A DNA stretch of 64,000 bases from Loripinus fragilis (taxonomy: Eukaryota > Mollusca > Bivalvia > Lucinida > Lucinidae). Below are positions 27,290-63,835 of this stretch, piece by piece. The position numbers and the translations under genes were made by a program. The stretch spans positions 110,776,145 to 110,840,144 of the forward strand of contig OZ026518.1 in the NCBI GenBank assembly GCA_964019695.1, given 5' to 3'. Positions within the stretch are counted from its first letter, which is position 1; each line of letters starts with the position of its first letter. The notes under the pieces were generated by a model, which ran no database searches, was not told where the DNA came from, and saw only the letters and a list, made by a program, of their open reading frames with translations.

Positions 27290-28470
27290 TTCAAGATATT
27301 AATATTTGTAACTCTGGTTGTCACTTTGTTCGGCCGAGCTGAACGTTCTGATCAATTTTGGTAGAGGGCATTATGGGAAACATTTCTGTGAAATTATTTT
27401 GAACTTAGACCAGTGGTACAGGAACAGATGTTGTTTAACAATATTTCATATCTAGAGCTCTGGCAGCCCCTTTTTTTAAGGTGCAGTCAAAACATAAGTG
27501 AAATTTTGGTAGAGGGCGTTATGAGGAACATTTTTGTGAAAAATTATTGAATTTGGACCAGTGGTTCAGGAGATGCCGTTTAAAGACATTTCTTATCTAG
27601 AGCTCTGGGGGCCCCTTTGTTCAGTGGAGTGGAATCATTTGTGCATTTTTTGTAGAGGGCATAATGAGGAACAATTCTGTAAAATTATGTTTTAGTTTCG
27701 GACCATTGGTTCAGGAGGAGATGTCATTAAAATATATTGCTTATCTAGAGCTCTGGTTGCCCCTTTGTTTGGCAGAGAGGAACCATTTGAACACGCAATT
27801 TTGTAGAGGGCATCATGAGAAACAATTCTGTGAACTTATTTTGAATTTGGACCAGTGGTTCAGGAGATGCCGTTTAAAGACATTTCATATCTAGAGCTCT
27901 GGCGGCCCCTTTCATTCAGCTGAGTGGAACCATTTGAGCAATTTTGAGAGGGCATCATGAGGAACGATTCTGTGAAATTATTATTTGAATTTGGACCAGT
28001 AGTTCAGGAGATGTTGTTTAAAGATATTTCTTATCTAGAGCTCTGGTGGCCCTTTTGTTCGGCAGAGCAGAACCATTTCTGCTATTTTAGTAGAGGGCAT
28101 CATGAGGAACAATTCTGTAATATTTTTCTGAATTTGGACAAGTAGTTCAAGAGATGTTGTTTAAAGAAGTTTCTTATCTAGAGCTCTGGTGGCACTTTTT
28201 TTCAGTGGAGCAGAACCATTTCTGCAATTTTGGTAGAGGGCATCATGAGGAATATTCTGTGAAATTATTTTTAATTTGGACCAGTGGTTCAGGAGGAGAT
28301 GTTGTTTATAAGATTTCTTATCTAGAGCTCTAACAGCCCTCATGTTCGGTGGAGGGGAACCATTTATGCAATTTTGGTAGCGGGCATTATGGGGAAAATT
28401 CGTGTGAAATTATTGTAAATTTGGACCAGTGATTCAGGAGGAGATGTCGTTTAAATAAAAAGTTTACGCA
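27290..28470 (+). repeat. ~145-150-bp satellite, about eight units
   Basis: Units recur with 'ttatctagagctctgg', 'ttttggtagagggcatcatg', 'aacaattctgtgaaattatt' and 'gaccagtggttcaggaga' at about 27450, 27600, 27748, 27893, 28040, 28180 and 28325. Diverged by substitutions and small indels. Confidence 0.85.
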
Positions 28471-35450: not shown

Positions 35451-38400
35451 TTTTTTAACCCCAAAATAACAATGGTTTTTCTTATTTTCCACAAAGACAT
35501 TTTTTGTTATGGTTTGCTCATTAGAAGTATCTCATTTAGACCCTTCCAGTGAGTAACCACAACATACTAGTCAGTTCATTAAATTTTTGGTACCTTTAAT
35601 CACATATGTGTTAAGTAATTTAAAATGCATACTCAGGTATCTAGTAGACCTAAAGGCCTCACTTTTGGACTGCACCTCTATCTACATTCCTTCTTGGTGT
35701 GAGCAGCAAAGGCCCTGGCCAGATTGTTTGACTGCGCAGGCTTGACTGAGCATTTGCTGCTTGTACATGCTATAAGTACTGAAATCTCATGAACTGGCTA
35801 TTAATATGTAAAAAGTATTTCAGCTTCATTTTTTTATCTAGGGCTGAACAGAAGCATCAAACAATTTTAAAACTTATACAACTAAAGAAAAATAATTGTT
35901 CTAGTAGCATTTTATGCATGAAAATGATTATGGTCAATTTGATTATATGTAAGCTGTATAATGCAGAAAGAGCAATACTTGCACACCCTTTAATCCATTG
36001 TATACTAATTAATGAGTTCTTCCGTAGGTTCGATACAATGAACCAGGGATGATTTATTGTACACGTCAAGGGGTCACAGCTTAGCATTTTCAAGTTAAGA
36101 ACAAAGATGTCAAGGGTGAAAATTCAAAATTTGGGATGTTCAAATTTATTGGCGCTTTAATGGTAAATGGCTCTTTTTGCATTGGGCTTTATGCATAAAG
36201 TTTGGCAACAGAAATTTCATTCCTGATAGCATTATTAATCTTCAAACAATTGAGGTTATTACTACCTGAAAGGTGTCATGAAAACAAAAATCTGCAAGAC
36301 GTCTTCAAGGTTTTCCCTGACTCACAATAATGAGTGCTAGACTCCCAAAAAATTGTCTGGGCTCCCTACAAAAATATCTGCGCATCCTTTGGAACTCAAA
36401 AAAGCAAATAAATATAAAATCTGATTAAAAATTGTATTTAAAGAGAACGGCTTCTGTGAAGCTCACAACACTTGACCCTCAAGAAGGGAGCACGCAGGTG
36501 TGATCAGGTGCTATGAGAGGAGCTGGAAGGGGGCCACACTGATGGCCCACTGCCCCTGCATGTTAATCAAATATCCAATTATGATATGCTGTGATATTTT
36601 TATGAAATACTGTGTATAGCAGCTACTCAGTTTTTCATAAAAAATTAGAGATTCAAAATTATTTCTTGTAAATGGCAAATCATTACACACGATAAATTAT
36701 TAGTACTGCTTTAATGAATGAATCAAAGGAGGACCCTTGATTTATGCTTTGGATCCCTTAATGTGAGAACATGAGAGTCTCAGGGACTCTTAAGATTCAT
36801 TTCTTAGCCTAAACCCTGCATTTATACAAAGAGACTCTAGATCAGCCTGTCCTAATACACAGTCACAGATATCACATTTAGTTGCTTTTAAAGCTTTTAA
36901 TTTACTAGTGATTCCTAAATGTCTTGTTTGGCAAACAGTGAAGACCTAGATGAAATGCTGCATAATGCAGCATTTCATCAGGGTCTACACTGTTTGCTAA
37001 GACAAAAACAATCTTCAGAGAAAGAAATACAATTTTCAATTGGAAATTATAACAAATGTAATAGCATCCCTTTCAGAAGGTTTAAATGAAATTGCTTTTT
37101 ATAGACAATTTTAATTGCTTATTTAGGCAAATATGCAGTGTATTTGGACTTCTGGTGTAAGAAGCAAATAAAAGAGAAACAGGTAAAGGATTGCAAACCC
37201 TGCAGACTATGTTATTCATGACATCAAGAAACTCAATCAAATAATAAGTGAATATAGATCACACTTGTGATGTGAATATTTCTATGGTTAAAGAGCTTTT
37301 TGTTTTTTCTTATCTGACCCTACAAAGATCCTTTCACCTACATAAGCCCATGAGCCAGCCATTTGTTAGAAGAATTCCTAGGAAGTCAAGCACATCAGCA
37401 TATAATATGTGACTGGCTCTGTGACTTCAACACAGGTCCAGATACAAAAATAATCAAAAAGTGTAAAACAGAATATTTTCTTGTCAATCAATTTTAACAT
37501 TTGTTTTGGGTCTCATTGCAGAGACAGTTCTTTTGAGTGCTCACAATATGTTATAGTTGAGCAATAAGAAATTTTTTTATCTCTTACCTGAAGGCCTGCT
37601 TTGAACCTTGTGGAGGTTCTATGTCCTCAATTAGAACCATAAACTTGAAACATGCATTTGAAGACTTAAAAAAAATCAATTCACATAATTAAAGGGGAAC
37701 TGAGCTGTGCCCCTATGTGATAAATACCCTTTTTAGGTGGTCTGGCACAATGGATCATTTTTTCTCTAATATGCAGATTGGCCTGGTGAGGAACGCACAG
37801 GCTGATCGGGCACACTTTTGCATTTAGGGAGGTTATCTTTTGCACACTTTTTGCGATATCAATTGTGCACTATTTTCACACCCCCAATAAAGAGCAATTA
37901 GTGATTACTGGCCATGAACCGATTACTTGTACAGGTATACAGTGCTTCGAGAAGCTTTTTTGTCAGCATCTGGGCTGGTATTCCCTCAGAAGATAAGAGG
38001 AGAAATAATAATGAGATAATAAAGGCTAAATGTTATGGGTTACCAGAGATGCAGACTCGTCATGACTAACCTCAGGACTGGGAGGGCATTTTTCGGAGTA
38101 GACCTTAGATTACTCAGATCTGTGCCCTTTCTGTACACCACAAAGTACATGCGTACGCATCAGGTGGAAACTTTAATTACTGTGCTTCCAGAGATGTCTC
38201 GGTTAACTTTATCAAAATGGTCTACTAAAACTGACATATAGTGCTTTTAAACTTTTAAACCAACCTTTTATTTGTGTATGTGTAAAAACTTTCAAATCTG
38301 ATAATTTAATATCCTGTTTGTCTTTCCACTTTCCAGTGGTGAGCAGAAGGCAACGAACTTACATCGTTTAGTTCGGCTGAAGGAAGGCTTAAGAGTGCTT

Positions 38401-45450: not shown

Positions 45451-46182
45451 ACTGACTTCTTTAACCCTTTACCTCATAGAGACACTTTTTAACACTTTTG
45501 CAAACAGAGAAGACCCAGATCAGGCAGCCCTTTTAAGAGCTGCCTGATCAGGGTCTACTCTGTTTGCTAATGGAAATATGATTAGATATGATCCTACACT
45601 AGCGGACCTGACAAGTAATTTCTTTGTTCTATGTAAAAACATGAAAATTTATTTGTATAATTATTCATAGACGGTGGAGCTTAGCATGAATATTCATGAA
45701 GGAAAGGGTTAAATCATGATAACTCCAAGAATCCAAGGCATATATTACTCACTATTCTCCCAAAAGAGTCCACAGGTTGTGGGGAAAACTAGAGCAGATA
45801 CTCACATTACCACGAGTAGAATATTATAAGTCTGAAGAAAGTGATCAGCCTAGGCTTTTCTATCTCCTATTTTCCCATTTCAAAATAAAATACCAGTATT
45901 AGGCCTAACATATATTTTTTAAAATGCTGTTTCGTCCATTACCCGGCTCTTTTACACCCTATAGCCTCAGAATGTTTCATCTTTTTTTTTACATGTCCGC
46001 CTATTGAGCAAAATCTCATTCCGAGGGTAAACATTTTGATAGGAAAGCTCATATTGTGACTTCACATCATCCCCAACACTTGTTTGCTTTCATTATCTTT
46101 TTCTGACACTATTTGGCAATATAATATAAAAACAAGTTTGTTTCTGAGTATCCAAGTTAACTTGTTCATTAGCAACATTTTT

Positions 46183-46388
46183 GTTTGTTTTGTTTGTTTT
46201 GTTTGAATTGATTCTTTATGTCCCATCAACAATCTTTCAGTTAGGGACTGGTCTTCCTGGGTTGAACAAGTACTAAGCTAGGATTAATGTGTCTTGCTCA
46301 AGAACACAATGCAGTGACGCCTGCGAGGCTCGGACCTGCGGCCCCTTGGCCTTGAGTCAAGCAGTCTACCACTGAGCCACTGTGCTCA
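46183..46388 (-). mobile_element. SINE family A
   Basis: Tail (gtttgaattgattctttatg), centre and head (ctaccactgagccactgtgc) all recognisable; sequence cattagcaacat flanks it on both sides as a likely target-site duplication. Confidence 0.87.
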
Positions 46389-46488
46389 TTTCATTAGCAA
46401 CATGAGAATAAATTAAAAAGCTACCTTACTCCTTATCTCTAAACCTCCCAGTAGAAAGTGACAAACCAAAATGTTTTTTAAGCATGGC

Positions 46489-46598
46489 CTACTTACTGTC
46501 AAAATAACTCCTATCTTCATCATCTTCCAGATCTGCACAAACTCCGCCTTCTGTCTGAGAAGCCCCTCCAAGTCCAGCCCATCAAAGAAAACATGTTC
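46489..46598 (-). pseudogene. Decayed tandem copy of the 3' end and splice donor of the preceding MAST exon
   Basis: This 110-bp block repeats 46599-46709 head to tail: 12 nt of intron, the donor, and about 98 nt of exon coding HVFFDGLDW...TSYFD. I count about seven differences, including a missing base in the FVPDL region that shifts the frame, so it cannot replace the exon. A GTAAGT donor is kept (GT at 46496-46495), but an exon running on to it would meet the TAG just after the primary donor. There is no acceptor at its upstream edge, which adjoins the primary intron start. It is therefore non-coding intronic debris of an exon-plus-donor duplication. Confidence 0.88.
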
Positions 46599-46606
46599 CT
46601 ACTTAC

Positions 46607-46834
46607 TGTCAAAGTAACTTGTATCTTCATCATCTTCCAGATCTGGCACAAACTCCGCCTTCTGCCTCAGAAGCCCCTCCCAGTCCAGCCCATCAAAGAA
46701 AACATGTTCCTTGACCTCCTGAGCCCCTGCTCGGCCAAGCCTATCTAAGGGATTATGCTGTAATAATTGTGTTATGAGATCTTTAGCGTCATCCCGTACT
46801 TGCCATTCTTCTTCCTCTGGCCATTCTATACCCT
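46607..46834 (-). CDS. MAST: MAST exon, end of kinase domain and AGC C-terminal extension (residues 344-419)
   Basis: A 228-nt exon with acceptor gtgtactttcag and donor ACA|GTAAGT (phase 1 in, 1 out). It encodes EGIEWPEEEEWQVRDDAKDL through HNPLDRLG, HVFFDGLDW, LLRQKAEFVP and DDEDTSYFD. RLG..G..EVK.H.FF is the end of the kinase C-lobe. LRQKAEFVP.LE..DDTSYFD is the AGC extension characteristic of MAST. Reading past the donor meets a TAG two codons later (FDSK, then stop), so splicing here is required. The last ~98 nt of this exon together with its donor are duplicated immediately downstream (46489-46598). Confidence 0.96.
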
Positions 46835-55099: not shown

Positions 55100-55173
55100 G
55101 CGTAGGCACCATTGCTGATGAGTTTTATCGTCTCAAAATCTTCTTCTGATGGCGTGTTCTCTTTCCTTTTAAA
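55100..55173 (-). CDS. MAST: MAST exon, start of kinase domain with nucleotide-binding loop (residues 104-127)
   Basis: A 74-nt exon (phase 0 in, phase 2 out) with acceptor atatatttcag and donor GC|GTAAGT. It encodes FKRKENTPSEEDFETIKLI then SNGAY. TPSEEDFETIKLISNGAYG is the family signature at the kinase start. The split last codon is GC plus A from the next exon, giving Ala where MAST kinases normally have the third glycine of the loop (SNGAYGAV becomes SNGAYAAV). The acceptor of the next exon allows no other in-frame reading. The change is one base from Gly (GGA to GCA), so it may be a variant, an assembly error or real. Confidence 0.9.
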
Positions 55174-56784: not shown

Positions 56785-56867
56785 ATCATGATCTTCCACA
56801 TCAGAGTGAATGGAGTCCGTCATATCATCTATGATAGCTGCTGTCTCAAGACTCTCTATCTCCATTT
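56785..56867 (-). CDS. MAST: MAST exon, linker between DUF1908 and kinase (residues 76-103)
   Basis: An 83-nt exon with acceptor tttctttcag and donor GAT|GTTAGT, phase 1 in and 0 out. The split codon joins G from the preceding exon with AA to give Glu, so the protein reads DPLA-E-MEIESLETA, matching the DPLEEM of other MAST proteins. It encodes an acidic linker (MEIESLETAAIIDDMTDS and IHSDVEDHD). The exon is squeezed between two inverted-repeat elements: one ends about 13 bp past its donor and another starts 30 bp beyond its acceptor. It is too short to stand out as an open frame; it was found by phase and by the family pattern. Confidence 0.85.
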
Positions 56868-56896
56868 CTGAAAGAAACAAAGTTAGGATAAAAATA

Positions 56897-57101
56897 CAGT
56901 AAAACCTGCCTTAAGCGGCCACTCAAAAATAGACAAAACAAAGGTCTTATTGACAAATGGTAGCTTAATGAAGGTCGAAAGTATTGCAGAATGCTCTATT
57001 GGAGCATTCTGCAATACTTTTGACCTACATTAAGCGATAATCGGTCTTGAAAATCAGTTTTGGTCTTCTTTTTGAGTGGCCACTTAAGACAGGTTTTACT
57101 G
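56897..57101. mobile_element. Mariner-type inverted-repeat element (MITE 1)
   Basis: TA-flanked CAGTAAAACCTG ... CAGGTTTTACTG with the family hairpin. It starts 30 bp upstream (in transcript sense) of the acceptor of exon 56785-56867, in the region where the branch point would be expected. Confidence 0.87.
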
Positions 57102-57829
57102 TATGCACCAACAACACAGTTTAAACAGATGAGGTACCAAGAGTGACCACTGGCATTTAAAATGGGGTCAAAGTTACCCAAAGTATAATTATTGTTACAA
57201 TCTGAACACTGAATATCGTGCACTATAACAACAACTTTGCCATTAGGGCTAGGTTGGGTTGAGATTTTATACCAGAGTCCCAATAAGGTACCTGTTGGTA
57301 CACATAAACTTGAGCAAACTAATAAACAAACACCTGATTAGTGCAATATAAATGCACCATTTTTTTTTTAAATATATTTTTAAAAAATCCATGTCTGGTT
57401 TTACAATCTCCTCAATAATCATGCAAATTTTCATTAAAAATTAATAGGTAAATTTAATGCAAATGTTTAACATGACACCCATCAAAAAATTTCACCAATG
57501 GGAATAAGGTACTGCAAAAACGTTAAAATGTAACACATGACAGTGTGCCACGCCAGATACATAACTGAGAAATTTCCAGAAAAAATTAAGTACAAGGAAA
57601 ACAGAACTAGGCCACATCTATATGAGGGTATTGACCAGCCCCAGCACTGAGCTCTACAGACACTAACCTAGTATTCTCTATATCTGGGGTCACTGAGGCA
57701 CTGCCTTTAATTGACTCTATTTGACTGTAGTGTAGTAATTACCCTTAGTTGACAGTTATTTAGATAACATGCTAACAGAATAAGAGTGTATAAGAAAGTA
57801 CTATCAACTCAGTGAGGATTACAGTCCTT

Positions 57830-58025
57830 GTTTGTTTGTTTAATTTGATTCTGTGCTTCCAATCAACAATCTTTCAGTTAAAGAGGGACGGGTCTTCCTG
57901 GGTTGAACCAGTACTAAGCTAGGATAAATATGCCTTTCTTAAGGACCACAAGGCAGTGACGCAGGTGAGGCTTGCAGCCCTGGCCTCGAGTCAAGCACTC
58001 TACCACTGAGCCACTGCGCTCCCTA
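57830..58025 (-). mobile_element. SINE family A abutting the end of the exon array
   Basis: Tail gtttaatttgattctgtgct, centre ttcctgggttgaaccagtac, head ctctaccactgagccactgc. It ends about 14 bp from the last (30th) array unit; flanking tacagtc(c/t)/gaagattacagtc is a likely target duplication. Confidence 0.85.
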
Positions 58026-58038
58026 AAGAAGATTACAG

Positions 58039-61000
58039 TCTGTTCAACATCTTACCTGCTAGAGGGTCTCTGTTGAGACCTAGTTTACTGATGATGTAGC
58101 GTGGAATGTCAGCTTTGATCGTCTGTTTGGCTTTCCCTTCAGCAGCCAACTCAGTGAGAGATAACGACCTGTTCAACATCTTACCTGCTAGAGGGTCTCT
58201 GTTGAGACCTAGTTTACTGATGATGTAGCGTGGAATGTCAGCTTTGATTGTCTGTTTCGCTTTCCCTTCAGCAGCCAACTCAGTGAGAGATAACTACCTG
58301 TTCAACATCTTACCTGCTAGAGGGTCTCTGTTGAGACCTAGTTTACTGATGATGTAGCGTGGAATGTCAGCTTTGATTGTCTGTTTGACTTTCCCTTCAG
58401 CAGCCAACTCTGTGAGAGATAACAACCTGTTCAACATCTTACCTGCTAGAGGGTCTCTGTTGAGACCTAGTTTACTGATGATGTAGGGTGGAATGTCAGC
58501 TTTGATTGTCTGTTTCGCTTTCCCTTCAGCAGCCAACTCAGTGAGAGATAACAACCTGTTCAACATCTTACCTGCTAGAGGGTCTCTGTTGAGACCTAGT
58601 TTACTGATGATGTAGCGTGGAATGTCAGCTTTGATTGTCTGTTTGACTTTCTTTATAGCAGCCAACTCAGTGAAAGATAACGACCTGTTCAACATCTTAC
58701 CTGCTAGAGGGTCTCTGTTGAGACCTAGTTTACTGATGATGTAGCGTGGAATGTCAGCTTTGATTGTCTGTTTCGCTTTCCCTTCAGCAGCCAACTCTGT
58801 GAGAGATAACTACCTGTTCAACATCTTACCTGCTAGAGGGTCTCTGTTGAGACCTTAGAGTTTACTGATGATGTAGCGTGGAATGTCAGCTTTGATCGTC
58901 TGTTTGGCTTTCCCTTCAGCAGCCAACTCAGTGAGAGATAACGACCTGTTCAACATCTTACCTGCTAGAGGGTCTCTGTTGAGACCTAGTTTACTGATGA
59001 TGTAGCGTGAAATGTCAGCTTTGATTGTCTGTTTGACTTTCCCTTCAGCAGCCAACTCAGTGAGAGATAACAACCTGTTCAACATCTTACCTGCTAGAGG
59101 GTCTCTGTTGAGACCTAGTTTACTGATAATGTAGGGTGGAATGTCAGCTTTGATTGTCTGTTTCGCTTTCCCTTCAGCAGCCAACTCAGTGAGAGATAAC
59201 AACCTGTTCAACATCTTACCTGCTAGAGGGTCTCTGTTGAGACCTAGTTTACTGATGATGTAGCGTGGAATGTCAGCTTTGATTGTCTGTTTGACTTTCC
59301 CTTCAGCAGTCAACTCTGTGAGAGATAACAACCTGTTCAACATCTTACCTGCTAGAGGGTCTCTGTTGAGACCTAGTTTACTGATGATGTAGCGTGGAAT
59401 GTCAGCTTTGATTGTCTGTTTGGCTTTCGTTTCAGCAGTCAACTCAGTGAGAGATAAAGATCTGTTCAACATCTTACCTGCTAGATGGTCTCTGTTGAGA
59501 CCTAGTTTACTGATGATGTAGCGTGGAATGTCAGCTTTGATTGTCTGTTTGACTTTCTTTATAGCAGCCAACTCAGTGAAAGATAACGACCTGTTCAACA
59601 TCTTACCTGCTAGAGGGTCTCTGTTGAGACCTAGTTTACTGATGATGTAGCGTGGAATGTCAGCTTTGATTGTCTGTTTCGCCTTCCCTTCAGCAGCCAA
59701 CTCTGTGAGAGATAACAACCTGTTCAACATCTTACCTGCTAGAGGGTCTCTGTTGAGACCTAGTTTACTGATGATGTAGCGTGGAATGTCAGCTTTGATT
59801 GTCTGTTTGGCTTCAGCAGCCAACTCAGTGAGAGATAAAGACCTGTTCAACATCTTACCTGCTAGAGGGTCTCTATTGAGACCTAGTTTACTGATGATGT
59901 AGCGTGGAATGTCAGCTTTGATTGTCTGTTTCGCTTTCCCTTCAGCAGCCAACTCTGTGAGAGATAACAACCTGTTCAACATCTTACCTGCTAGAGGGTC
60001 TCTGTTGAGACCTAGTTTACTGATAATGTAGGGTGGAATGTCAGCTTTGATTGTCTGTTTGGCTTTCCCTTCAGCAGCCAACTCAGTGTGAGATAACGAC
60101 CTGTTCAACATCTTACCTGCTAGAGGGTCTCTGTTGAGACCTAGTTTACTGATAATGTAGGGTGGAATGTCAGCTTTGATTGTCTGTTTGGCTTTCGTTT
60201 CAGCAGCCAACTCTGTGAGAGATAACGACCTGTTCAACATCTTACCTGCTAGAGGGTCTCTGTTGAGACCTAGTTTACTGATGATGTAGGGTGGAATGTC
60301 AGCTTTGATTGTCTGTTTTGCTTCCCCTTCAGCAGTCAACTCAGTGAGAGATAACAACCTGTTCAACATCTTACCTGCTAGAGGGTCTCTGTTGAGACCT
60401 AGTTTACTGATAATGTAGGGTGGAATGTCAGCTTTGATTGTCTGTTTGACTTTCCCTTCAGCAGCCAACTCAGTTTGAGATAACGACCTGTTCAACATCT
60501 TACCTGCTAGAGGGTCTCTGTTGAGACCTAGTTTACTGATGATGTAGCGTGGAATGTCAGCTTTGATTGTCTGTTTTGCTTCCCCTTCAGCAGCCAACTC
60601 AGTTTGAGATAAGACCTGTTCAACATCTTACCTGCTAGAGGGTCTCTGTTGAGACCTAGTTTACTGATGATGTAGCGTGGAATGTCAGCTTTGATTGTCT
60701 GTTTGGCTTTCCCTTCAGCAGTCAACTCAGTGAGAGATAACAACCTGTTCAACATCTTACCTGCTAGAGGGTCCCTGTTGAGACCTAGTTTACTGATGAT
60801 GTAGCGTGGAATGTCAGCTTTGATTGTCTGTTTGACTTTCCCTTCAGCAGCCAACTCTGTGAGAGATAACAACCTGTTCAACATCTTACCTGCTAGAGGG
60901 TCTCTGTTGAGACCTAGTTTACTGATGATGTAGTGTGGAATGTCAGCTTTGATTGTCTGTTTCGCTTTCCCTTCAGCAGCCAACTCAGTGAGAGATAACG

Positions 61001-61883
61001 ACCTGTTCAACATCTTACCTGCTAGAGGGTCTCTGTTGAGACCTAGTTTACTGATGATGTAGCATGGAATGTCAGCTTTGATTGTCTGTTTGGCTTTCGT
61101 TTCAGCAGTCAACTCAGTGAGAGATAAAGATCTGTTCAACATCTTACCTGCTAGAGGGTCTCTGTTGAGACCTAGTTTACTGATGATGTAGCGTGGAATG
61201 TCAGCTTTGATTGTCTGTTTGACTTTCTTTATAGCAGTCAACTCAGTGAGAGATAACGACCTGTTCAACATCTTACCTGCTAGAGGGTCTCTGTTGAGAC
61301 CTAGTTTACTGATGATGTAGTGTGGAATGTCAGCTTTGATTGTCTGTTTGGCTTTCCCTTCAGCAGCCAACTCAGTGAGAGATAACAACCTGTTCAACAT
61401 CTTACCTGCTAGAGGGTCTCTGTTGAGACCTAGTTTACTGATGATGTAGCGTGGAATGTCAGCTTTGATTGTCTGTTTGGCTTTCGTTTCAGCAGTCAAC
61501 TCAGTGAGAGATAAAGATCTGTTCAACATCTTACCTGCTAGAGGGTCTCTGTTGAGACCTAGTTTACTGATGATGTAGCGTGGAATGTCAGCTTTGATTG
61601 TCTGTTTGGCTTTCGTTTCAGCAGTCAACTCAGTGAGAGATAAAGATCTGTTCAACATCTTACCTGCTAGAGGGTCTCTGTTGAGACCTAGTTTACTGAT
61701 GATGTAGCGTGGAATGTCAGCTTTGATTGTCTGTTTGGCTTTCGTTTCAGCAGTCAACTCAGTGAGAGGTAAAGATCTGTTCAACATCTTACCTGCTAGA
61801 GGGTCTCTGTTGAGACCTAGTTTACTGATGATGTAGCGTGGAATGTCAGCTTTGATTGTCTGTTTGGCTTTCCCCTCAGCAGC
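58039..61883 (-). repeat. 30-unit, 129-bp tandem array made from a MAST exon plus its 5' splice site
   Basis: Thirty consecutive copies of a 129-bp unit. Each holds 93 nt of exon ([17 protein letters not shown]), the exon's own CAG|GTAAGATG donor and intron-derived sequence readable as [12 protein letters not shown]. Exon-end boundaries run from 61793 (unit 1) to 58056 (unit 30). That distance, 3737 nt, equals 29 x 129 minus 4, exactly explained by a 1-nt deletion between units 10 and 11 (near 60612), a 6-nt deletion in unit 17 (near 59815) and a 3-nt insertion in unit 24 (near 58857). Units vary at a few codons: AAEGKAK, AAEGKVK, TAETKAK, AAIKKVK, and R/P/H/C in the IPRY motif. Premature stops lie in unit 24 (two) and unit 28. 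No unit 2-30 has the [12 protein letters not shown] start, and no intron-length spacer separates units. Confidence 0.93.
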
Positions 61884-61919
61884 CTCTAACAGCTGGTAGA
61901 ATTCTTCAGGATCAAACTC
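61793..61919 (-). CDS. MAST: MAST exon, end of DUF1908 (residues 34-75); founder unit of the 30-copy array
   Basis: A 127-nt exon (phase 0 in, phase 1 out) with acceptor ttgttgcag and donor CAG|GTAAGA. It encodes [12 protein letters not shown] followed by [17 protein letters not shown] and [12 protein letters not shown], closely matching the end of the MAST N-terminal domain in other animals (family motif IPRYIISQLGL.RDP). From the AAEG codon onward, this exon plus its donor and about 36 nt of intron is the first of 30 tandem copies. The start is fixed by the acceptor and by the unbroken ECL|EFDPEEF join. The 3' end is ambiguous: this donor gives the canonical protein, but the donors of units 2-10 would also join the next exon in frame. 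Confidence 0.88.
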
Positions 61920-62863: not shown

Positions 62864-62962
62864 GAGGCATTCTAGAAGTCTTGAGGGTCGTGATATGATC
62901 AGCAACATTTTCTTGATGAGAGGATATATAAACACGTAGGCGTCTCCTGATCTCTCTTCGGC
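62864..62962 (-). CDS. MAST: MAST exon, DUF1908 helical segment (residues 1-33)
   Basis: A 99-nt exon, phase 0 at both ends, preceded by a pyrimidine-rich acceptor (ccatttcag) and followed by donor GTAAGA. It encodes 33 residues from AEERSGD to RPSRLLECL. The ARPARLLECLEFDPEEF stretch is a hallmark of MAST proteins, and this exon supplies RPSRLLECL directly before the EFDPEEF that opens the next exon. It belongs to the MAST-specific domain N-terminal to the kinase, thought to take part in regulation and localisation. It is the most upstream exon I can identify. The preceding part of the domain is not found between 62963 and 64000. Confidence 0.9.
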
Positions 62963-63459: not shown

Positions 63460-63835
63460 GCCAAAATTTTATTGTATACTGATTTTTTTACCTAAATTTT
63501 ACTGAGGTTTCAATTTTAGGCCAAAATTTTACTGAGTATCAAATTTGGGCCTAAATTTTACTGAGTATCAAATTTGGGCCTAAATTTTACTGAGTATCAA
63601 ATTTGGGCCTAAATTTTACTGAATCCCGATTTATGGGTCTTCATTTTACTGATTACCAATTTTTGGGCCTTTATTTTACTGATTACCGATTTTTGGGCCT
63701 TTATTTTACTGATTACCGATTTTTGGGCCTTTATTTTACTGATTACCGACTTTTGGGCCTAGATTTTACTGATTACCGATTTTTGGGCTTAAATTTTACT
63801 GGCCTAAATTTTACTGATTACCTATTTCAGAGGTA
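63460..63835 (+). repeat. 30-bp minisatellite, about eleven units
   Basis: Units of ttttgggcctttattttact gattaccga and earlier caaatttgggcctaaatttt actgagtat variants. The plus strand stays open (10-residue period GLYFTDYRFL), a by-product of a period divisible by three. Confidence 0.85.

Follow-up and report, generated by a model that had tools for sequence, protein, structure and literature searches.

Which splice donor closes an exon when the end of that exon, its donor and the start of the following intron stand thirty times in tandem? This question is raised by a MAST kinase gene of the bivalve Loripinus fragilis, which we identified by tblastn with MAST queries on the minus strand of a 64-kb window (the whole stretch of 64,000 nucleotides analysed here, C5:110776145-110840144 in the 1.99-Gb genome; positions below are those of the window). 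The array constitutes a large natural experiment on the cell's choice among thirty near-identical splice donors. Our analysis, which proceeds from the DNA and published minigenes, suggests that the array is probably an exon-derived minisatellite that lies functionally inside an intron, with donor 1 used and the remainder spliced out. The readings discussed below are not exclusive, and the probabilities that we express for them do not sum to one.

Anatomy of the Array

Tandem Repeats Finder reported a single array at 58040-61884 with a period of 129, 29.8 copies and 94% matches, and a direct scan of the minus strand found 30 donors CAG|GTAAGATG, whose last exon bases run from 61793 down to 58056. 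An earlier note on this DNA had described 30 tandem 129-bp units; the count agrees with the scan, but the donor spacing is 129 nt in 26 of the 29 intervals and 128, 123 and 132 nt once each in the others. The exon end, the donor and the intron start are included in all 30 units, the first of which is the real exon. The features of the array are as follows.

61793-61919, minus strand: MAST exon with the amplified 3' end, 127 nt; acceptor before 61919, donor 1 CAG|GTAAGATG after 61793, exit at phase 1
58056-61792, minus strand: array units 2-30, 29 extra copies, each made up of the first 37 nt of the intron and the last 92 nt of the exon and closed by an intact donor
60633-61919, minus strand: continuous open frame that begins with the exon and extends as far as donor 10, 429 residues, with ten DUF1908 C-terminal stretches
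60504-60631, minus strand: unit 11, 128 nt, with a 1-nt deletion; first in-frame read-through stop at 60530

The donors fall into two groups, with phase 1 at donors 1-10 and phase 0 at donors 11-30, so that the phase 1 formerly assigned to every donor applies to the first ten. These ten are also in frame and open, as had been claimed, and the 1-nt deletion said to break the frame after unit 10 is indeed present in unit 11. The first read-through stop, at 60530, precedes donor 11; hence, donors 11-30 all lie behind a stop. The repeated module corresponds to the C-terminal end of the Pfam domain DUF1908 (profile positions 237-280 of 281) and is located ~41 residues before the kinase match, and it is thus not the linker just before the kinase domain for which it had been taken.

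Units 2-30 comprise 27 distinct sequences among 29 copies, with a mean pairwise divergence of 4.7%, and units 3, 4 and 20 are identical. Their variable sites are concentrated at unit positions 17-56 (17 of 40 positions, against 8 of 89 elsewhere; Fisher 2e-5), a 40-nt segment that surrounds the duplication joint. Because this segment lies across the exon/intron border, neither coding nor splicing constraint explains the clustering simply. In a genome search with a 351-base query, a search that skips very common words, the array matched no other locus: 29 of the 31 matches lay here, and the two others were weak and concerned the part upstream of the exon.

The MAST Gene That Carries the Array

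The DUF1908 and kinase exons were placed with a MAST query, and the PDZ region and the C-terminal part with further queries. When joined, the seven exons with read splice borders encode 419 residues without a stop, in which Pfam recognizes DUF1908 at residues 1-76 and the kinase (Pkinase) at residues 117-390. The domain order of DUF1908 pre-PK, kinase and PDZ was found, the PDZ-region exons being assigned by tblastn only and not by Pfam.

62962-62864, 61919-61793, 56867-56785, 55173-55100, 51484-50949, 47713-47603 and 46834-46607, minus strand: the seven MAST exons with read splice borders
62864-62962, minus strand: MAST exon before the array, part of DUF1908, ending at phase 0 (tblastn with a MAST query, splice borders, Pfam)
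56785-56867, minus strand: next MAST exon, entered at phase 1 (splice borders)
55100-55173, minus strand: MAST exon that leads on to the kinase domain (tblastn with a MAST query, splice borders)

The protein end of exon 61793-61919 reads NRDPLA. The splice borders of the next exon bear out the earlier statement that entry at 56867 requires phase 1, and the junction from 61793 to 56867 restores DPLA-EMEIES, comparable to DPLEELEIE in Mya and Ruditapes. For a 206-residue region, the nearest proteins among the matches listed (the best 120 of 3510) belong to Mya arenaria (78%), Ruditapes philippinarum (77%) and Mercenaria (76%), and no annotated protein of the same species was found among these matches. 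The protein searches of this study give the best 120 of 335, the best 120 of 1153 and the best 120 of 3510 matches, with candidates limited by length. Among solved structures, a 56-residue query reached a best E of 0.058, and 2m9x and 1v9v match a longer Ruditapes query only up to the exon preceding the module.

All 30 DUF1908 matches reported from the genome cluster at a single locus (C5:110834201-110854800), and the domain's remaining exons stand upstream in their proper order. The MAST gene is thus single-copy as far as this search, in which 39 candidates were scored, shows, and its normal product is presumably needed.

Origin and Growth of the Repeat Unit

The unit had been divided into 93 nt of exon and 36 nt of intron, but the duplication joint GAGTTGA|CTGCTGA is better accommodated by 92 and 37 nt, and the unit is best read as 37 nt of intron followed by 92 nt of exon. 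The far end of the array bears on the origin of the unit.

57804-58055, minus strand: what is left of the original start of the intron beyond unit 30, interrupted by an insert resembling a short interspersed nuclear element (SINE)

Positions 57804-57816 match the array unit. The SINE-like insert, named by eye and spanning about 57827-58030, is flanked on both sides by GATTACAGTC, a 10-nt flanking duplication, and beyond it CTCACTGAGTTGA continues the unit as the end of its intron part. Taken together, the joint and the continuation of the unit beyond the insert reveal its origin: the first 37 nt of the intron became joined to the final 92 nt of the exon. ARAGORN found no tRNA in the insert at 57827-58030. 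An element that resembles it by eye is located at ~46180-46390 in the same MAST gene.

The following course of events is consistent with this anatomy. A tandem duplication would have linked position 37 of the intron to a point within the 127-nt MAST exon, and the resulting unit would by chance have been a multiple of three in length and have carried a strong donor, CAG|GTAAG, in which eight contiguous bases can pair with U1. Growth to 30 units would have followed, presumably by unequal exchange, which is the usual explanation for repeat growth. We searched the units for block structure, and the best run, units 18-23 against units 25-30 (lag 7; 2, 1, 8, 1, 3 and 4 differences), was not significant.

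Donor Choice and the Fate of the Array

The upstream intron is 944 nt long, and the downstream intron, 4925 nt if counted from donor 1, still measures 1188 nt when counted from donor 30; with long introns on both sides, the exon falls into the exon-definition regime. A minigene study reports that five constructs, each with 365-nt introns and a pair of identical CAG/guaagu donors, used the upstream donor exclusively, that the upstream donor was favoured under exon definition in human events of near-equal strength, and that shorter exons were preferred (PMC9225289). This donor choice, together with the long flanking introns, makes donor 1 and the normal protein the default expectation. Because an acceptor is matched, under exon definition, with the closest donor on the other side of the exon, the first donor would close the normal 127-nt exon in the pre-mRNA, the later units would leave with the intron, and the normal MAST protein would be made, to judge from the published minigenes. 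Donors 2-10, and the candidate cassette exons described below, would yield in-frame minor isoforms, and donors 11-30 would yield stop-carrying messages. An array with a silent default outcome would therefore be tolerated. Its length might still alter splicing efficiency; for the variable number of tandem repeats (VNTR) of human CBS, a higher copy number reportedly accompanies lower enzyme activity.

The same gene contains another repeated exon end.

46488-46711, minus strand: second, separate tandem duplication of an exon end and its donor within this gene, present as two copies with a period of 111

Here, the end of exon 46834-46607 and its donor ACA|GTAAGTAG are duplicated. Copy 2, at 46488-46711, stands behind an immediate TAG and carries a 1-nt deletion and six substitutions, so a full-length message must use the first donor at this exon. 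The frame-broken second copy can be regarded as an internal control that speaks for a silent array. That one gene holds two separate duplications of an exon end suggests, although it is no proof, that events of this kind are not uncommon in the genome. In the window, 2 of 10 arrays with a period of at least 60 touch an exon, against a random mean of 1.5 (P = 0.48), which is no enrichment among ten hand-picked long-period arrays, with approximate borders for the four exons below 46607. Since exon contact is no more frequent than chance, the duplication of exon ends may be a routine by-product of a genome rich in repeats.

Several points weigh against an array that is simply spliced out with its intron. 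In the same minigene study, the downstream donor is preferred in ~60% of human events when donor strength is left uncontrolled, and the minigenes are human-cell constructs with two donors, not thirty (PMC9225289); it is from such constructs that we infer donor choice in the MAST array. Each of the 30 donors is intact, as are the 16 nt that follow it, and this could mean use; none of the 16 positions is variable in units 2-30, compared with 8 variable positions among the 73 of the exon part (p = 0.34), so that conservation of the donor is not distinguishable from that of the exon part. Units 1-10, the sole ones reachable in frame by read-through, contain no stop or frameshift. Finally, the best block similarity was matched or beaten by 220 of 2000 shuffled unit orders, which leaves unequal exchange unsupported.

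Coding Constraint on the Copies

The excess of synonymous changes among the units was not significant, with 11 of 29 distinct changes against an expected fraction of 0.27 (p = 0.13, transitions weighted 2:1), and the exon part alone gave 4 of 9 synonymous changes (p = 0.19). With its p of 0.13, coding selection was rejected as evidence for the use of the units. A pattern of residues was then compared with 284 fetched homologues, of which 281 match it and three do not. These 281 homologues have Q, R, I or K at one module position, and E followed by G or D at another. Residues absent from all 281 at one or both positions occur in 17 of the 29 units (in one of them via an in-frame deletion), including seven of the nine units 2-10.

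Two modules were present in no fetched homologue; a pattern search found one module in 280 of the 284 and none in four, and a stricter module pattern gave 171 with one module and 39 with none among 210 homologues. When the 429-residue array frame was used as a query, in a search that scored only the 7998 candidates sharing most words, none of the best 120 of 335 matches covered more than 17% of it. The missing synonymous excess, the residues unseen in homologues and the lack of a two-module homologue argue against general coding use, and the coding constraint on the copies appears weak. Models of the ten-module frame (AlphaFold, single sequence) reached a mean predicted local distance difference test score of 52.9 in the best model and 29.5-36.8 in the other four, and the fold was not used.

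Candidate Cassette Exons in Seven Units

Seven units differ from the others in a way that is absent from the earlier note. A T-to-A change at unit position 32 turns CACTGAG into CACAGAG in units 9, 14, 16, 18, 21, 25 and 28, and thereby creates an acceptor-like TTATCTCTCACAG|AG (CTCACAG|AG) in 7 of the 29 copies. The candidate exons that begin at these sites, scored with an approximate weight matrix, are as follows.

60761-60856, minus strand: candidate 96-nt cassette exon in unit 9, from CTCACAG|AG to donor 9, phase 1-1, open
60117-60212, minus strand: candidate cassette exon in unit 14
59859-59954, minus strand: candidate cassette exon in unit 16
59607-59702, minus strand: candidate cassette exon in unit 18
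59220-59315, minus strand: candidate cassette exon in unit 21
58701-58796, minus strand: candidate cassette exon in unit 25, with the lowest acceptor score of the seven, just below the 3.4 cut
58314-58409, minus strand: candidate cassette exon in unit 28

Among the alternatives to a silent array, a nascent cluster of cassette exons ranks highest, although we consider it unlikely. Under this alternative, seven 96-nt phase 1-1 exons could enter the message, alone or several in a row, between exons 61919 and 56867, each contributing 32 residues. All seven candidates are open, in frame and provided with a strong donor. Their acceptors score 5.3 in five units and 4.7 and 3.4 in the two others, against 2.8 for the real acceptor of the exon and a 99th percentile of 3.4 among 119 background AGs. 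When acceptors and donors were paired at cut-offs derived from the array itself (acceptor 3.4, donor 7.2, spacing of 50-250 nt), six acceptors within the array had a donor in range (12 pairs), as did a single acceptor in the rest of the minus strand of the window; the plus strand had none. However, the weight matrices were approximate, the thresholds were chosen after the array had been seen, and an acceptor score of 5.3 is not rare, being found at 39 minus-strand AGs in the window, 34 of them outside the array and 5 inside. The sole other minus-strand pair at these thresholds, at 37588-37782 with its sites 195 nt apart, may be an exon or chance.

The candidate units also appear to resemble the homologues more closely than the other units do. 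Homologue-like residues at both tested positions are present in 6 of the 7 candidate units and in 6 of the 22 others (Fisher p = 0.011), and among 29 rotations of the unit labels only the observed one gave so low an overlap. This association is post hoc and concerns units related by descent, and a second count, based on non-synonymous differences with units 17 and 24 omitted, was weaker, with 5 of 29 rotations as low; for these reasons we treat it as a lead. The phases restrict what the candidates could do. Since the upstream exon ends at phase 0 and the cassettes need phase 1, they could not replace the real exon in frame and could only be added after it. Nor do the copies behave as tandem duplicated exons, in which every copy has its own acceptor and donor and the copies replace one another in frame: an acceptor-like site is present in 7 of 29 copies, and the phases do not permit in-frame replacement.

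A bolder version would make the array an exon nursery, in which exons are born donor-first from a minisatellite and a spreading point change, driven or kept by selection, supplied the acceptors. We regard this as doubtful, and as somewhat less likely than the cassette cluster as such. If it were true, a deeply conserved kinase, found here at a single locus, could lengthen or shorten its pre-kinase domain in increments of 32 residues.

Other Explanations

The earlier note had suggested that the array sets linker length as a ladder of donors, and in this form donors 1-10 would be alternative 5' splice sites that determine the number (0-9) of 43-residue modules. Such a ladder is compatible with the frame, all ten donors being at phase 1 and open, but it runs against the donor-choice rule for exon definition from the minigene study and against the preference for shorter exons reported there, since an exon ending at donor 2 or later would measure at least 256 nt (PMC9225289). 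The homologue-unseen residues in seven of the nine units 2-10, and the lack of a second module in any fetched homologue, likewise oppose it. We therefore find little to recommend the ladder and hold it to be quite improbable.

Nearly as improbable, and slightly more so, is the use of dual-specific sites as in the UBC gene, by which CAG|GTAAG would serve as a donor in one unit and as an acceptor in another, with traceless removal of units and stepwise shortening of the RNA. An AGGT (CAG|GT) exists in all 30 units at near-fixed spacing, 28 of the 29 spacings being multiples of three, and UBC is known to behave so, with VCX3A described as analogous (PMC10809524). However, the acceptor side CTCTAGCAG|GT scores -0.4 in 29 of the 30 units and -1.7 in one (approximate matrix), a score of -0.4 corresponding to the ~75th percentile of the 119 background AGs, and dual-specific sites are unneeded to explain the gene. 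For comparison, the acceptor used in UBC has a MaxEnt score of -0.21, which is on a different scale from that of the matrix used here (PMC10809524).

An inflated unit count due to misassembly is very unlikely. Long, near-identical tandem arrays can be mis-sized, and the identical units 3, 4 and 20 fit such an error, but the 27 distinct sequences among 29 units, the distinct array end broken by an insert and the 1-8 differing bases per unit in the most similar six-unit block all argue against it. Least credible of all is a decoy or telescripting device, in which thirty strong donors would bind the U1 small nuclear ribonucleoprotein and thereby protect the transcript or titrate U1: the donors are indeed of one strong type, whose score recurs at one other minus-strand site and two plus-strand sites of the window (approximate matrix), but one locus could hardly titrate the abundant U1 particle.

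Other Repeats in the Window

Three further repeats were observed in the window. At 56894-57104, there is a 211-bp inverted repeat with arms of 103 nt that are 78% complementary and 5 nt apart, resembling by eye a miniature inverted-repeat transposable element; it begins 27 nt before the acceptor at 56867 and could affect that acceptor. A minisatellite with a 30-bp period and ~ten units is located at 63491-63816, in the intron before exon 62962, and an array with a 143-bp period and 7.6 copies is located at 27349-28455.

Comparison with Known Systems

The earlier note knew of no described case in a MAST gene, and the one literature search that we aimed at such a case likewise found none in MAST; the kind, however, has been described in the human CBS 31-bp VNTR, which that note did not name. 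For donor arrays in general, literature searches found nothing fitting beyond the CBS and UBC types. By anatomy, the MAST array belongs with the CBS type, and it differs from it in unit size, frame, conserved domain content and acceptor-bearing copies. In both, the unit spans an exon end and an intron start, the border is repeated in each copy, and the gene is otherwise normal. Lievers 2001, the original paper on the CBS VNTR, reportedly describes an alternatively spliced message. The name of the CBS VNTR, c.1444_1467+7(16_21), gives 16-21 copies of 24 nt of exon end and 7 nt of intron (PMC2630376), whereas the MAST array has 30 copies of a 129-bp unit (92 + 37) in place of the 31-bp unit (24 + 7). 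A review places the CBS repeat where exon 13 meets intron 13 and associates larger repeat numbers with reduced CBS activity and raised homocysteine (PMC5188458); the repeat also appears in a table entry of PMC1395315. Its copy number is polymorphic and linked to enzyme activity. Unlike the CBS repeat, the MAST array has a unit that is a multiple of three, contains the end of a conserved domain and includes seven copies with acceptor-like sites.

A second CBS variant, c.844_845ins68, duplicates the intron 7/exon 8 junction; splicing strongly favours one junction and the change is harmless (PMC2630376). This resembles the silent MAST array in that a junction is duplicated and one copy is favoured, but the CBS variant adds one extra intron/exon junction copy (the paper speaks of two splice donors), whereas the MAST gene has an array. 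Clusters of tandemly duplicated or mutually exclusive exons contain several near-identical exon copies in one intron. The MAST array shares this arrangement, but 22 of its 29 copies have no acceptor-like site, roughly the first 35 nt of the exon are missing from every copy, and its candidates, unlike mutually exclusive exons, offer no in-frame replacement of the real exon (phase 0 upstream, phase 1 needed). In the potato RNA-dependent RNA polymerase (RdRp) gene, an intron is reported to have been gained by tandem genomic duplication (PMC4974935). There as here, a tandem duplication within a gene changes the splicing anatomy, but a new intron is reported in potato, whereas an existing intron is lengthened in MAST.

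The MAST array bears on how the end of a conserved exon may be multiplied while the gene stays intact, and on whether the proximity rules derived from two-donor minigenes extend to thirty donors. In the case of UBC, the polyubiquitin gene, an array of AGGT sites is usable as donor and acceptor, with VCX3A described as analogous (PMC10809524). The MAST array resembles these genes in its AGGT per unit at a fixed interval and its in-frame units, and splicing within such arrays can change module number. However, the units of UBC are coding and its sites have been shown to work both ways, whereas in MAST the acceptor side scores weakly and the array continues the intron. Donor-bearing repeats of the MAST type may nevertheless offer a possible route to new cassette exons, akin to the repeat-driven creation of introns proposed in the paper on UBC (PMC10809524).

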